Shown here: piece by piece, positions 54,331 through 60,409 of the stretch
How the letters are laid out: every line of letters begins with the position of its first letter
How positions within the stretch are numbered: position 1 is the first letter of the stretch
Assembly (NCBI GenBank): GCA_003963305.1
Contig: RXJR01000024.1
Span: 186,001 to 250,000 of the forward strand
Direction of reading: 5' to 3'
DNA length: 64,000 nucleotides
DNA from: Candidatus Melainabacteria bacterium
GTDB taxonomy: Bacteria; Cyanobacteriota; Vampirovibrionia; Obscuribacterales; Obscuribacteraceae
Translations under genes and position numbers: made by a program
Notes under the pieces: generated by a model
Told to the model about the DNA's origin: nothing
What the model saw: the letters and a program-made list of their open reading frames with translations, nothing else
Database searches by the model: none

Positions 54331-54482
54331 ATCATCTTAGCCACTCAGCCGCAAGCCGACTAACCGAAAACCGCGCCCACTAAATGCTACGCGGGCGGTG
54401 TCAAAGCAACGACCCACTATTAATGCTATTAAGTTCAAATCCCGGGCATAAATAGAATTAGGCTGCTAATAGAGTTGAGCGA

Positions 54483-55499
54483 ATGCAAAAGCGTCGCATA
54501 CTACTGCTTCTTCTAACGATTCCTGTGATTCAGCCCATGCCTGTTTCAGCGCAGAGCACTATGGAATTTGGCGCTGTTCATGCCGGAGCTATTGGATTGG
54601 GCGCAGGATTGGCAGCCAGTCGAAGTCACGGTCAGGTTGTGCGCCGCTCCTATGAAGCAATGATTGAAGCAGAAAAGGCGACAATTGCGCAGACAAAAGC
54701 CATCGAACAATACATGACACTTGGATGTCAGCTCGAATCGAAAAAACGCTGGAGCGACGCAGAGAAGTCCTTCGCCTATGTACTTAAAGTGGTAGCGCTG
54801 AGAGATGGTCCCGGCAGTATAAAGGGACTTCCAGCGCTGCAACATCTAGTCAACGTTTCGAAACAACAGGGGAAAATCACAGAAGCTATCGACTTTCAAA
54901 AAACTGTGGTTGCATTTGCAAAATCACCGAAGGTTCCGGATCAACAACTGCTCTTACGCTCGCAGATTGATCTTACGGATCTGTTTCTTATAAAAAACGA
55001 CTATACAAATGCTGAGACGGTGCTGAGAGAAACAATTACCGACAATAAGTCGTACCAGGCGCTGCCGGCAGCGAAGAGACGTAAAACCATTCAGACTTAC
55101 GCCAATGTTCTGCGCAAATTAAACAGAGATTCTGATGCCGATGCGCTCGAAGCCGAAAATGCTCAACTGCTTTCCGGCTCAGAGAGCCCAACAGCAGTCG
55201 CTAAAGAGGCAAGACCGGATGCAACTCCCTCGATCGTAACCGAGGCGCCTGCAACCGCCGGACAAATACCAGCCACGGCGTCAGCACCTGCAGCACTACC
55301 GACAACACCGACGACAACAGCATCGTCAATAAGGGCAACCGATCCAACTACAGCACCATCGTCAATAACAGCAGCAACGTCAGCAACGCCAACGGCAGAA
55401 TCAAAATCAACAGCGACTGCAACGGCAACAACGGCTGCTAATTCGCCGGCGATAACGACTACGTCAAAATCAACTGAGCCGGCAACGGGACACAGGTAA
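54483..55499 (+). CDS. Exported TPR-like protein with Ala/Thr-rich tail
   Basis: 338 aa. Signal peptide (MQKRRILLLLLTIPVIQPMPVSAQS), then helical repeats resembling TPR units (EQYMTLGCQLESKKRWSDAEKSFAYVLKVV; LVNVSKQQGKITEAIDFQKTVV; DLTDLFLIKNDYTNAETVLRETI) to about residue 230. A low-complexity Ala/Thr/Pro/Ser tail (about 240-335) may be a wall or surface linker. Its stop is one base before the start of a Ser/Thr kinase gene, so the two are likely co-expressed and may act together at the envelope. Confidence 0.8.
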   Translation: MQKRRILLLLLTIPVIQPMPVSAQSTMEFGAVHAGAIGLGAGLAASRSHGQVVRRSYEAMIEAEKATIAQTKAIEQYMTLGCQLESKKRWSDAEKSFAYVLKVVALRDGPGSIKGLPALQHLVNVSKQQGKITEAIDFQKTVVAFAKSPKVPDQQLLLRSQIDLTDLFLIKNDYTNAETVLRETITDNKSYQALPAAKRRKTIQTYANVLRKLNRDSDADALEAENAQLLSGSESPTAVAKEARPDATPSIVTEAPATAGQIPATASAPAALPTTPTTTASSIRATDPTTAPSSITAATSATPTAESKSTATATATTAANSPAITTTSKSTEPATGHR

Positions 55500-55500
55500 T

Positions 55501-56607
55501 ATGGATCTCGAGCGTACTCAAATTGAAGACTCGCGACTCCAGAGTTTTCAATTACGAGCAAAGCAACTAGCCGAAGAACTGCCGACACAATATCAACTGT
55601 TCGAAAAAGTCGGCGAAGGCGGCATGGGCTTCATCTTCAAGGCCGGGAATCGGTACACCGGCGCGCAGTATGCGATCAAAGTTCTACGCTCGGAATTTGA
55701 TTCAGACCAAAGAGCACTCGAAAGGTTCATGTTTGAGGCGAAAGCAGCAAGTTCACTCAAACATCCAAACATCTGTTGTGTTCATGACTTTGGTCTGACT
55801 GACAACGGAATCCCCTATCTAGTCATGGACTGGATTGAAGGCATCAGCCTGGGACGCAAAGTTACTCGAGATAAACAATTTTCGGTTCCCGAAGCGCTGG
55901 AGATCTTCAAACAAGTTGCGGCTGCGCTCATTCATTCGCATCAAAACAAAGTCGTGCACCGAGACATGAAACCAGAAAACATCATGCTCAGCCGGGACGC
56001 GCAAGGTAAAACCACAGTGCATCTGCTGGACTTTGGCATTGCAAAAATGTTGAGTGATGAAGATATGGTGATTTCAGGCGGACTGACACGATCAGGCACC
56101 GTGGTTGGAACGCCATTGTATATGAGCCCAGAACAAGCTCGAGGACTGAAAGTAGATCGCCGCTCCGACATTTATTCTCTTGGCTGCGTAATGTATTTCA
56201 CTCTCACAGGCGCACCACCTTTCGTCGGCAAAACAGTAATCGACACAATCGAGATGCATCTAAACTCTCCGCCTCCTGAGATAGATAGCGCCCTGAAAGT
56301 GCCTGCGGACCTGAAGAAAGTAATCTTGAAAGCGCTGGAAAAGAGCCCGGCAGATCGATATCAGTCTGTCGAAGAATTAGCGAATGATCTTGGAAAAGTG
56401 ACTCGCGGAGTGAGTATCGACAAAAAAATGTTGGCGAGCGAACGCAAGTCGATGCAGAAAAAGATCGCCGTCGTTCTCTCCTTCATTCTCGGATTCATTG
56501 TCATGTACGCTGTTTCAATTGGTTTGCAAAACCTTTTGGACAGCCCTACCTCGAAAACGCCGGCCAAAAAAACTCACAATAATCAAAAGCAACCGATTCC
56601 CAAGTAG
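55501..56607 (+). CDS. Membrane Ser/Thr protein kinase (PknB-like)
   Basis: 368 aa Hanks-type kinase. Gly-rich loop GEGGMG (38-43), Lys60 in AIKVL, Glu79, catalytic loop HRDMKPEN (Asp155), DFGIAK (Asp177), GTPLYMSPEQ (APE-like) and DRRSDIYSLGCVMY. A single transmembrane helix (about 322-343, VVLSFILGFIVMYAVSIGLQ) is followed by a short Lys/Asn-rich external tail and no PASTA repeats. It phosphorylates Ser/Thr targets from the membrane. All catalytic residues are present. The preceding secreted TPR protein is a natural candidate partner. Confidence 0.95.
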   Translation: MDLERTQIEDSRLQSFQLRAKQLAEELPTQYQLFEKVGEGGMGFIFKAGNRYTGAQYAIKVLRSEFDSDQRALERFMFEAKAASSLKHPNICCVHDFGLTDNGIPYLVMDWIEGISLGRKVTRDKQFSVPEALEIFKQVAAALIHSHQNKVVHRDMKPENIMLSRDAQGKTTVHLLDFGIAKMLSDEDMVISGGLTRSGTVVGTPLYMSPEQARGLKVDRRSDIYSLGCVMYFTLTGAPPFVGKTVIDTIEMHLNSPPPEIDSALKVPADLKKVILKALEKSPADRYQSVEELANDLGKVTRGVSIDKKMLASERKSMQKKIAVVLSFILGFIVMYAVSIGLQNLLDSPTSKTPAKKTHNNQKQPIPK

Positions 56608-56663
56608 AAATATCAAAGCCTGTAAAAGCGCGCATTTCTACGGACACCGGGCATCGACTCGAT

Positions 56664-58628
56664 TCATAGCAACGGATTTCCACCTGGTCCAGTCGGTCCC
56701 CCAGGTGCACCGATGGCAGTCAAATGAACGGGCTCCAGAAGACTCGACTTCGGCTGCAGATCTGCGAATTTCGAATCGTGCGCTGCTGCAGTCGCGAAAT
56801 AGTGATTGGCTTCATCTTTCTTGCCGCTAATAAACAAAGTTATGGCCAGGTTGAAATAAGCTTCAGTCAATGATTGCTCAGATTCGATGGCTCTCTGAAA
56901 AGACTCGACGGCAGCTTCAGTAGCTCGATGCATCAAATAATAAACCCCGAGGTTGTACCACCCCCTGGACATCTCAGGCTTTCGAGTCACGGCGGCATTT
57001 AAATAGCTAACAATCCGTGGACGTATTGTAGTGATTTCATCACTCAGTCGAATTTCCATGATTGCCGAATTGTAGGCGGCTTCGGCAAGCCCACCCAACG
57101 CATCAGCAGCGGCAAAGTCTTGAGCCGCCTCGCCTAATTGATTCAACAGAGCATGTGCACAGCCGCGATTGTAATAGGCTAGCGCTGTCGGGTTCGTTTG
57201 AATGCTGGAATCAAACAGCTTCAAACTGGTGTTGTAGTCTTTCTCCAGATAGGACTTATTCGCCAGGTTATAGAGAACAGCTTCAGGATTATTGCTTTCG
57301 GTATCGCCAGCAATACCAGCCAGTCCAGCATACAAGAACACAGGAAGGGCTCGACTCAACGACGGTCCGAAACCGCTCACGCCCTTATCCCATCTGAATA
57401 TCTCACATTGAGGGATGTGCGATTCTAATTGTTCTCGGACTTTCGGAGGGAATGGCAGATTATGCTTATGCTCGGTCCAGGCTGCAAGAAATTCTTCGCT
57501 GCACTCTTTTGCAATTTCTACAATTTGACGACTGGAGAGTTCGGCTTTGCTAGCCAATTTAGCGAAGTTTTCGAATGTAATGGACGTAATCAATTTTGCT
57601 CCACCCAAACTCAACCCCAGTTCATTGCTTGGATGAAAAGCCATTGTAGGAACCAGATCATAGGCGGGTGAAAGCGCCGGATTGACCCCATCTCTGTAAA
57701 TCAAAGACCAATTTTTCAAATGCATATCGGCATTTCCGGTGCCTATCATGAAAACGAGTCTGCGTATGAATTCGGTCACGCCGCTCATGCCTTCGGTGCC
57801 TCTCAGCACACGGGCGATGTCGTGATAAGCAACGCCTTTATATTTATCGGCGGGATACCGTCCAAACACCTGGGCAAAGTCTTCCATATGAATTCTTTTC
57901 AGCCCATCACGATCAAACCGTTTCACCGACAGCGTCTTGCCGCCCATCCTTTTGATATCAGAAGGCAAATTCGCAACTTCCGAAGTACTAACGAGCGAAA
58001 CTTCGGCAGTATTAATGCCCAGCAATTTAGAAAGCTTCATCGTTGCATATTCAGCTTCAGGAAGCCCTTCATATGCCAGTTCGGGCACTTTTAAAATGTG
58101 GTCGCCATCTTCGCCGTAAGGTCTTAGAGTCAGACGTCCATTGTGTTGCAGGTGCGCTGAAAACTTCATCTGAACACCAGCCAAAGAGAATTTAAGCGGT
58201 TCGATGTCGAGTTCTTTCGCAGCTGCGTCTTTTATTGAGTCGGCGGACGCCGCAATCTGACCATCTGGAATTGCTTTTACGGCGCCTGGAAGATCGGCTC
58301 CAAGTGCAGCCAGAAGAAAGAACTCACGCTCTTCATTGATGTTCAGCCCTTTCGCGACGTATGTGCGCAATTGCCCCTCTGGCAGCAAATTGGAGAAAAA
58401 AGGATGGAGCTTAGTTCGGTATATTTTCGAAGACTCAATGACGCCTCCTGTTTTTGATTGAAAGTTGAGACTCAACACTGGGCGATTTCTATCTTCAACG
58501 TAATCCAATTCAAAAGATAAACGGCTACCGTCGTACTGATCCGCGGTCAGTGTTCCGATTCTCTGCTCGCCAAGCCATATCGATAGTCTATTGCCGTATA
58601 TTTCAGAAGCCTTGCGCTTACTCACCAT
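56664..58628 (-). CDS. hipA: HipA-type Ser/Thr kinase toxin fused to a TPR domain
   Basis: About 654 aa from ATG 58628, chosen for a GAGGA about 9 nt upstream; ATG 58643 or GTG 58646 are alternatives, and all overlap hipB. Residues to ~410 are a HipA kinase: FSLAGVQMK holds the serine equivalent to E. coli HipA Ser150 (Ser148 here), HILKVP with the ATP-site Lys, SVKRFDRD, GNADMHLKNWS (catalytic Asp301, Asn306) and SPAYDLVPT (metal Asp324). Usual HipA proteins are ~440 aa; here a ~200-residue TPR region follows (YLEKDYNTSLKLFDSSI; RGWYNLGVYYLMHRATEAAV). HipA in E. coli phosphorylates GltX; the target here is unknown. Confidence 0.92.
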   Translation of the reverse strand: MVSKRKASEIYGNRLSIWLGEQRIGTLTADQYDGSRLSFELDYVEDRNRPVLSLNFQSKTGGVIESSKIYRTKLHPFFSNLLPEGQLRTYVAKGLNINEEREFFLLAALGADLPGAVKAIPDGQIAASADSIKDAAAKELDIEPLKFSLAGVQMKFSAHLQHNGRLTLRPYGEDGDHILKVPELAYEGLPEAEYATMKLSKLLGINTAEVSLVSTSEVANLPSDIKRMGGKTLSVKRFDRDGLKRIHMEDFAQVFGRYPADKYKGVAYHDIARVLRGTEGMSGVTEFIRRLVFMIGTGNADMHLKNWSLIYRDGVNPALSPAYDLVPTMAFHPSNELGLSLGGAKLITSITFENFAKLASKAELSSRQIVEIAKECSEEFLAAWTEHKHNLPFPPKVREQLESHIPQCEIFRWDKGVSGFGPSLSRALPVFLYAGLAGIAGDTESNNPEAVLYNLANKSYLEKDYNTSLKLFDSSIQTNPTALAYYNRGCAHALLNQLGEAAQDFAAADALGGLAEAAYNSAIMEIRLSDEITTIRPRIVSYLNAAVTRKPEMSRGWYNLGVYYLMHRATEAAVESFQRAIESEQSLTEAYFNLAITLFISGKKDEANHYFATAAAHDSKFADLQPKSSLLEPVHLTAIGAPGGPTGPGGNPLL

Positions 58629-58929
58629 CGTTGTCGTCCTCATCACCTAAGGGAACAAAAGCTGGTTCTGAGTCGTTTTCGGTAGAGTCGTGCAACAGAA
58701 GTCTAACTTCGGGTAAAAGTTGTATCGGCGCCAGAATTATCTCAAGTCCATAAAATCTGGAAAGCTCAATGAGGGTGCTTGCCTTCAGGTCGTACTGACC
58801 TTGCTCCAGTCGAGATAGATACCCCTGGGGAAACCCTAGCTGCTTTGAGACGCTCGCGCGTGTTAGACCGAGTTTTTCTCGGGCGTCGACAAGTTGCCTG
58901 ATGAGCGGTTTGTAGATATGGTCCTTCAT
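58618..58929 (-). CDS. hipB: HipB-type XRE-family antitoxin/repressor
   Basis: 103 aa. A helix-turn-helix of the Cro/C1 type at about residues 10-65: LVDAREKLGLTRASVSKQLGFPQGYLSRLEQG. The tail is short and acidic (PLGDEDDNDGE). Its stop lies within the start of hipA, so translation is coupled. By analogy with HipB it neutralises HipA and represses the operon; four matching operator-like sites lie directly upstream. No clear Shine-Dalgarno precedes the ATG, which may mean a very short leader. Identification by neighbourhood and fold is strong. Confidence 0.92.
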   Translation of the reverse strand: MKDHIYKPLIRQLVDAREKLGLTRASVSKQLGFPQGYLSRLEQGQYDLKASTLIELSRFYGLEIILAPIQLLPEVRLLLHDSTENDSEPAFVPLGDEDDNDGE

Positions 58930-58932
58930 GAT

Positions 58933-59050
58933 TGTAATTTACTACACTTTACTAGAAAAAAGTGTAGTAAATTACAACACTGCTCCTTAAAGAGAAAGAC
59001 CAAAATTGTAGCAAACTACACTTTTTGCGCAAAGATTGTAGTCCAATACA
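58933..59050 (-). promoter_or_regulatory. Four TGTA-N6-TACA operator-like palindromes upstream of hipB
   Basis: Sites lie at 58933-58946, 58963-58976, 59007-59020 and 59037-59050; each reads TGTA-N6-TACA. Start-to-start distances are 30, 44 and 30 bp, so they form two pairs with the same internal spacing. The first two also form one larger perfect inverted repeat (TTGTAATTTACTACACTTT and its complement). They fill the gap between the malic enzyme stop and hipB, as expected for autoregulation by HipB. Confidence 0.85.
59005..59032 (-). promoter_or_regulatory. Candidate hipBA promoter
   Basis: On the minus strand TTGCGC (59032-59027) and TACAAT (59010-59005) are separated by 16 bp. The -10 box overlaps the third operator, and the fourth lies just upstream of the -35. 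A second possible promoter, TTGTAA-N17-TAGTAA (58977-58949), lies between the first two operators and would give a nearly leaderless hipB mRNA. Confidence 0.55.
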
Positions 59051-59068
59051 CTATTCAAAAAAATGAAC

Positions 59069-60409
59069 CTAACCAGGTTCACCTGTCCGCGCAGCCAGAG
59101 CGACAGCATCAGCGACAACCTTATGCACTTCGCGATCCAAAATGCTCGGAACCAGGTTATCCATTTTGGTTTGACCAGCGATTGCCTGAGCTGCGGCAAT
59201 TTTCATAGCGTCTGTGAATCTCGTCGCCCCTGACATTAGAGCGCCTTTGAACAGACCCGGGAAAGATAGCGCGTTATTTATGGTTCTGCCGTCGGCCGCA
59301 AATTTCGCACCACAGGCGATGGCGAGGTCAGGATCTATTTCGGGATCTGGATTTGAAAGCGCGAGGATTACTTGTCCTTCCTTGACCATCTCTGGCTTGA
59401 TCAATCCTGGAACTCCGGTCGTGGCGACAACTACTTCTGATTCCTTCATAACAGTTTGCAGGTCAACCGGATATCCGCCGCGGGAGGCCAACCTGTCCAT
59501 AGCAGCTTGTTTCAAGTCTGTTCCGAAAATTTTCTTGGCGCCAAAGCTTTGCAACAACTGGGCAATGCCAGCGCCGGCAGCACCAAGACCGATGATTCCA
59601 ATGTTGCAGGAGGCGAGATCGATGCCCATTCTCTGAGTAATCGTCAGCAGCGCCCCAAGCACAACAATCGCCGTCGCATGCTGATCGTCGTGGAGAACAG
59701 GGATAGATAAAGCGTTTTGCAAACGCTCTTCGATATCGAAACATTCCGGAGCAGCGATATCCTCAAGATGGATAGCACCAAATGTGGGGGCAATGGCTTT
59801 TACTGATTCAATAATGTAATCGCTGTCCGTTGACTCAATCAAAATCGGTACCGCACTGATACCAACAAGCTCAGAGAACAATACGGATTTACCTTCCATC
59901 ACAGGCATACCGGCGACGGGCCCAATGTTGCCCAGACCAAGAATAGCGGTACCGTTTGTGACTACCGCAACAGTATTTGAAATGCTTGTGTACTCTTTGC
60001 TGTAATTCTTATCTTTTGCTATCAACTTGCAAATTTGCGCGACACCTGGAGTATAAATCCGGCGCAGTTCCGCTAATGAATTCAATTCAATACGACTGCG
60101 CATCTCGATTTTGCCGCCTTGATGCACCAACTGAACGGGGTCGATAACCATCTCGACCTCGACGCCTTCAAGACCAGAAACCGCGTCTTGAACACGCTGC
60201 AGATGTTTCTCATCATCAAGCTGCAGACTGATATCGCGAATGATGAAATCAGGACCCTGTCCGTGAATATGGATTTCACCAATATTCGCTTCCTGATCAC
60301 CAAGCAGGGTAGCGACTTTACCGAGAAATCCGGGCTTGTCCGTTACTCTCAGTCTGAGAATTCGCAATATTTTGGGTTGGGTTTTGCTGGTAGATGTTGT
60401 TGGTGCCAT
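59069..60409 (-). CDS. NAD(P)-dependent malic enzyme with N-terminal ACT domain
   Basis: 446 aa. Residues 14-90 are an ACT-like regulatory domain ([21 protein letters not shown]). The malic enzyme core follows: [92 protein letters not shown] (Rossmann loop), [14 protein letters not shown] and FPGLFKGAL. It decarboxylates malate to pyruvate, feeding central metabolism. The ACT domain suggests allosteric control by an amino acid or other small molecule. It lacks the phosphotransacetylase-like tail of long malic enzymes. Confidence 0.95.

Follow-up and report, generated by a model that had tools for sequence, protein, structure and literature searches.

Several HipB operators at one promoter are already known from E. 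coli, have been suggested in Caulobacter and occur in another form in Legionella hipBST. In E. coli, HipB occupies four operators cooperatively, HipA takes part as co-repressor, and the operators are bent by ~70 degrees (PMC3376134; PMC3920265). The hipBA1 and hipBA2 promoters of Caulobacter carry identical inverted repeats at intervals that fit the higher-order complex of E. coli (PMC7029023). In Legionella hipBST, several HipB palindromes lie upstream of hipB and were bound in gel shifts (PMC10653801). Here we describe an intergenic stretch of an uncultured Obscuribacterales-type bacterium which carries four exact TGTA-N6-TACA palindromes directly upstream of hipB. Judged from its layout, this four-site array is very probably the switch for self-repression of hipBA.

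The hipBA locus and its neighbourhood

The locus was studied within a 64-kb window, that is, the whole stretch of DNA that was analysed (Table 1). The hipB gene precedes and overlaps hipA on the same strand, which is the arrangement of a hipBA operon, and the HipA protein matched the Pfam domains Couple_hipA and HipA_C (1.2e-19 and 2.7e-47) and has a catalytic-loop region, GNADMHLKN, that is conserved with its relatives. When searched as a single sequence, the antitoxin did not match HipB among the solved structures and remained far below the NCBIfam Y4mF cut-off. A profile of 11 HipB relatives, built with no E. coli sequence, found the structures of HipB from E. coli (1e-9) and from Legionella (9e-8), with HigA and another Xre protein scoring slightly above these known HipB structures. 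This places the protein among the Xre/Cro helix-turn-helix proteins and relates it to known HipB. Apart from its own genome, no HipB relative was found at E 1e-12 in 386 sampled genomes of the wider phylum.

Table 1. Features of the hipBA locus, in coordinates of the window
Feature	Position	Strand	Remarks
S1 operator-like palindrome, TGTATTGGACTACA (hipB orientation)	59037..59050	(-)	centre -114.5 from hipB start codon
S2 palindrome, TGTAGTTTGCTACA	59007..59020	(-)	centre -84.5; 30 bp from S1; overlaps weak -10
S3 palindrome, TGTAATTTACTACA	58963..58976	(-)	centre -40.5; 44 bp from S2
S4 palindrome, TGTAGTAAATTACA	58933..58946	(-)	centre -10.5; 30 bp from S3
S3+S4 perfect inverted repeat	58932..58977	(-)	arms ~19 nt, 8 nt between; pair nearest hipB
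hipB, 103-aa helix-turn-helix antitoxin/repressor	58618..58929	(-)	HTH_3; profile match to E. coli HipB structures
hipA, kinase	56664..58646	(-)	HipA N-/C-terminal domains and C-terminal TPR repeats; overlaps hipB end
Terminator-like hairpin, end of malic enzyme gene	59061..59084	(-)	between malic enzyme gene and operator array
Malic enzyme gene	60409-59069	(-)	upstream neighbour of operator array
Ser/Thr kinase gene	55501-56607		converges on hipA
TACAAT, -10 candidate	59010-59005		read from sequence
AAGGAG	58988-58983		Shine-Dalgarno-like
hipBA block	54331-59068		4.7 kb: TPR protein, Ser/Thr kinase, hipA, hipB, operators

Of the positions linked to high persistence in E. coli, this HipA has kept neither P86 nor D88, and G22 is variable among the relatives; HipA-HipA bridging therefore lacks residue-by-residue support. 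Unlike E. coli HipA, the protein carries TPR repeats; it also has a G-P-rich tail. This HipA-TPR fusion is also present in two relatives of the order (L029, 3950-5977; L119, 573-3035), and different long C-terminal extensions occur on other HipA proteins of the group (L030, L041, L051), such an extension being absent from nearly all other complete HipA proteins compared. The Ser/Thr kinase gene that converges on hipA scored 1.9e-88 against the PADLOC PD-T4-6 models, which are possibly broad for such kinases.

The hipBA block as a whole is absent from a genome of the same genus (G033, L117), in which the two genes bordering the block in the window, for a glycosyltransferase and for malic enzyme, adjoin each other. 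No HipB match was found in the other same-genus genome either. The difference may reflect a gain in the genome of the window or a loss in G033.

The four palindromes and the described systems

The gap between hipB and the malic enzyme gene is 139 bp long and AT-rich (30% GC), and contains all four palindromes. A sequence-only reading of this DNA had reported four TGTA-N6-TACA sites within 118 bp at start-to-start spacings of 30, 44 and 30, and exact matches were recovered at each of these places (S1 to S4 in Table 1). TACA stands at positions 4-7 from the centre in all eight half-sites, and the majority half-site, read from the centre outwards, is N A Y TACA M T N T T. As seven of the eight half-sites also have A at position 2 and T at position 9, the operator is probably longer than the TGTA-N6-TACA motif of that reading.

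The layout is that of E. coli hipBA, where four palindromes also lie upstream of hipB in two pairs. When measured on their own promoter (L027), the E. coli operators are spaced 28-39-28 against 30-44-30 in the window; their pairs are 2 bp closer, the middle gap is 5 bp shorter, and the array ends 30 bp before hipB whereas that of the window ends 10 bp before it. The half-sites are different, TATCC-N8-GGATA in E. coli and TACA in the window, in agreement with what had been noted from the sequence, and the operator sequence differs in nearly all loci compared. Since it is spacing and not sequence that the loci have in common, the half-site difference from E. coli may be taken as typical variation. 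Caulobacter shares the paired four-site layout, two of its loci being spaced 31-45-31 (L059) and 31-43-31 (L061), but its half-sites are ATAT-type and not TACA. Legionella hipBST resembles the window in having several palindromes upstream of hipB and differs in their number and placement, with three operators at even 53-bp gaps that are not paired, and in its kinase, which is split into HipS and HipT.

Conservation of operator geometry

We compared hipBA loci of the family and 80 loci from other bacteria, chosen by HipA or HipB similarity and not at random. The hipB gene and its likely start, picked automatically, were located in 100 loci, and close relatives were counted once only in the non-redundant figures. 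For the analysis of pairs, any two palindromes with a common half-site at a spacing of 15-65 were searched, using no operator sequence, in 37 non-redundant loci whose HipB proteins are <60% identical. The pair spacing showed a sharp peak at 30-31 bp, whereas random control segments of the same loci were flat. Significant pairs were found in 14 of the 37 loci against 0 of 37 controls, and 11 of these 14 lay at 29-32 bp.

A four-site model, in which the pairs were limited to 28-32 bp and the middle gap was left free between 22 and 71, agrees with the unrestricted analysis of pairs. A score of z>5 was obtained for 49 of 96 hipB upstreams, against none of the 96 control segments; among non-redundant loci the figure was 11 of 36. 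In about half of the hipB upstreams the array was not significant, for which divergence, fewer sites or a wrong start may be the cause. The arrays found are mostly 30/31-44-30/31 and belong to several phyla; a middle gap of 43-45 is the commonest, and most last sites are at -9 to -13 from hipB. Examples are Croceicoccus (L050, 30-44-30), Corticimicrobacter (L068, 31-44-30), Parvularcula (L052, 31-43-31), an Acidobacteria bin (L093, 31-35-31), a Dadabacteria bin (L077, 31-43-31) and two loci of the window's own family (L009, 31-44-31; L006, 30-54-30). The highest four-site score among all upstreams was that of the window locus (30-44-30, last site at -10).

Two candidate features were discarded. 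An odd-centre scan gave pairs at 33 bp in the window and at 23 in L006; these values arise artificially when two sites stand in inverted order, and with even centres both loci give 30. Helical phasing between the two pairs gave a strong Rayleigh result for all loci, which was lost without the dominant 42-46 class (p ~0.3).

The operator cores are mostly ATAT-type at the other loci and TACA-type in the window. TGTA-N6-TACA was present, exactly or with one mismatch, upstream of none of the other family hipB genes examined, and the window's operator sequence does not occur upstream of its closest HipB relatives, which are at most 47% identical. Conservation upstream of hipB relatives, which had been proposed as a check, thus fails within the family for the operator sequence and extends far beyond the family for the geometry. 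A plausible though tentative explanation is that hipBA promoters of many phyla are kept by geometry and not by sequence, such that HipB and its operator drift together while a HipA-mediated bridge on the DNA fixes the spacing. The conserved elements would be a spacing of 30-31 bp within both pairs, a gap of ~44 bp in the middle and ~10 bp from the last site to hipB. No description of spacing conserved across phyla with sequence turnover was found in the open papers searched, and no priority is claimed.

Promoter region of hipB

The sequence-only reading had placed one site over the -10 box of a plausible promoter. The overlap of TACAAT with S2 is borne out, but the promoter itself is weak: the best upstream candidate is TTGCGC-N16-TACAAT, whose -35 is TTGCGC (8/12 matches), and a consensus promoter scan of the intergenic stretch reported none. 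Many of the relatives have a -35 resembling TTGACA or containing TTG in the middle gap, and their -10 coincides in part with the third site. Besides, the last operator ends a few bases from the hipB start codon in many promoters (L050, L052, L068, L077 and others), which leaves no room for an adjacent Shine-Dalgarno sequence.

Alternative explanations for the array

An AT-rich intergenic stretch may produce palindromes by chance, and the low GC content of this one would favour such an origin. In 20,000 dinucleotide shuffles of the 139-bp stretch, no site arose 19,819 times, one site 180 times and two sites once, and three or more were never reached. A four-site cluster in 118 bp is expected ~5e-9 times per genome from the genome-wide motif rate, and the layout of S1-S4 is also that of other hipB promoters. 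The cluster upstream of hipB is not chance, and the probability we leave to chance palindromes is negligible. Single occurrences of TGTA-N6-TACA are, on the other hand, at chance frequency genome-wide (57 in the 7.48-Mb genome against 53 for the reversed control; 0.18 sites expected per 64-kb window), so that confinement to this locus, which the genome scan was to decide, does not hold for the bare motif. It does hold for the paired form: the exact 30-bp pair occurs twice in the genome, both times upstream of this hipB, the runners-up differ by 3 mismatches and, at 13 others against 9, are close to the control, and no further exact pair at 27-32 bp was found among 53 genomes of the order. The same results bear on the idea that some unrelated cellular regulator recognizes TGTA-N6-TACA, occupies S1-S4 and controls hipBA among other genes. 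Palindromes of the TGTA/TACA kind are used by several unrelated regulators, which lends this idea some ground. The YefM-YoeB operators, for instance, have a TGTACA core (PMC3920265). Such a regulator is nevertheless very unlikely, as the paired form is found nowhere else in the genome or the order, single motifs do not exceed chance, and a layout shared with hipB promoters whose sequences differ is not what it would predict.

S3 and S4 could also act mainly as RNA, their inverted repeat folding in the leader and setting hipB translation, with the DNA palindromes being partly a by-product. The S3/S4 leader hairpin folds at -24.4 kcal/mol (z about -8), and no Shine-Dalgarno-like sequence adjoins the hipB AUG. 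In the putative leader (58929-58988, minus strand), AAGGAG precedes the hairpin by 5 nt and the AUG follows it by 2 nt, and folding would bring this Shine-Dalgarno-like sequence to 7 nt from the start codon, which may be a coincidence. Two similar palindromes in inverted order trivially give a hairpin, though, and a role in the leader explains neither S1/S2 nor the palindromic form of each site. The upstream AAGGAG is missing in L006 and L007, which are the closest relatives to have an inverted repeat at this position. As the main role of S3/S4 we consider this very unlikely indeed; a leader function could coexist with HipBA operators.

Proposed autoregulation of hipBA

Autoregulation by HipB is what one would suspect first, given that the array is oriented towards hipB and situated past the malic enzyme terminator. 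We hold it to be highly likely that S1-S4 are the hipBA operators, each site taking up a HipB dimer and the sites being paired through a probable HipA bridge, with repression of hipBA as the outcome. The same layout as in E. coli suggests this mode, with a dimer per site and HipA bridging within pairs. Each of the four palindromes would be bound by one HipB dimer, and the dimers on S1/S2 and on S3/S4 would be separated by about three turns of the helix and lie on approximately one face of the DNA. The paired dimers would be joined in one repressing assembly, probably via the attached HipA kinases, as reported for E. coli. This assembly would extend over the promoter as far as the start codon of hipB, so that hipBA is repressed and HipA is kept inactive, and loss of HipB would release both the repression of hipBA and HipA. 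We infer HipB binding, HipA bridging, cooperativity and repression from the paired form found only at hipB, the conserved geometry and the 28-39-28 array of E. coli; on this evidence, HipB operators with autoregulation, as envisaged from the sequence at the outset, are the best explanation of the array.

These comparisons, made from sequence alone, show that the paired-operator layout of E. coli hipBA extends to remote bacterial phyla, although the operators themselves change in sequence. The spacing allows HipB operators to be located even where their sequence is not known, and one can now test whether these kinases are generally restrained by a HipA-bridged higher-order DNA complex. If the pattern is general and undescribed, the spacing would be a sequence-independent mark of DNA-sequestered HipA.
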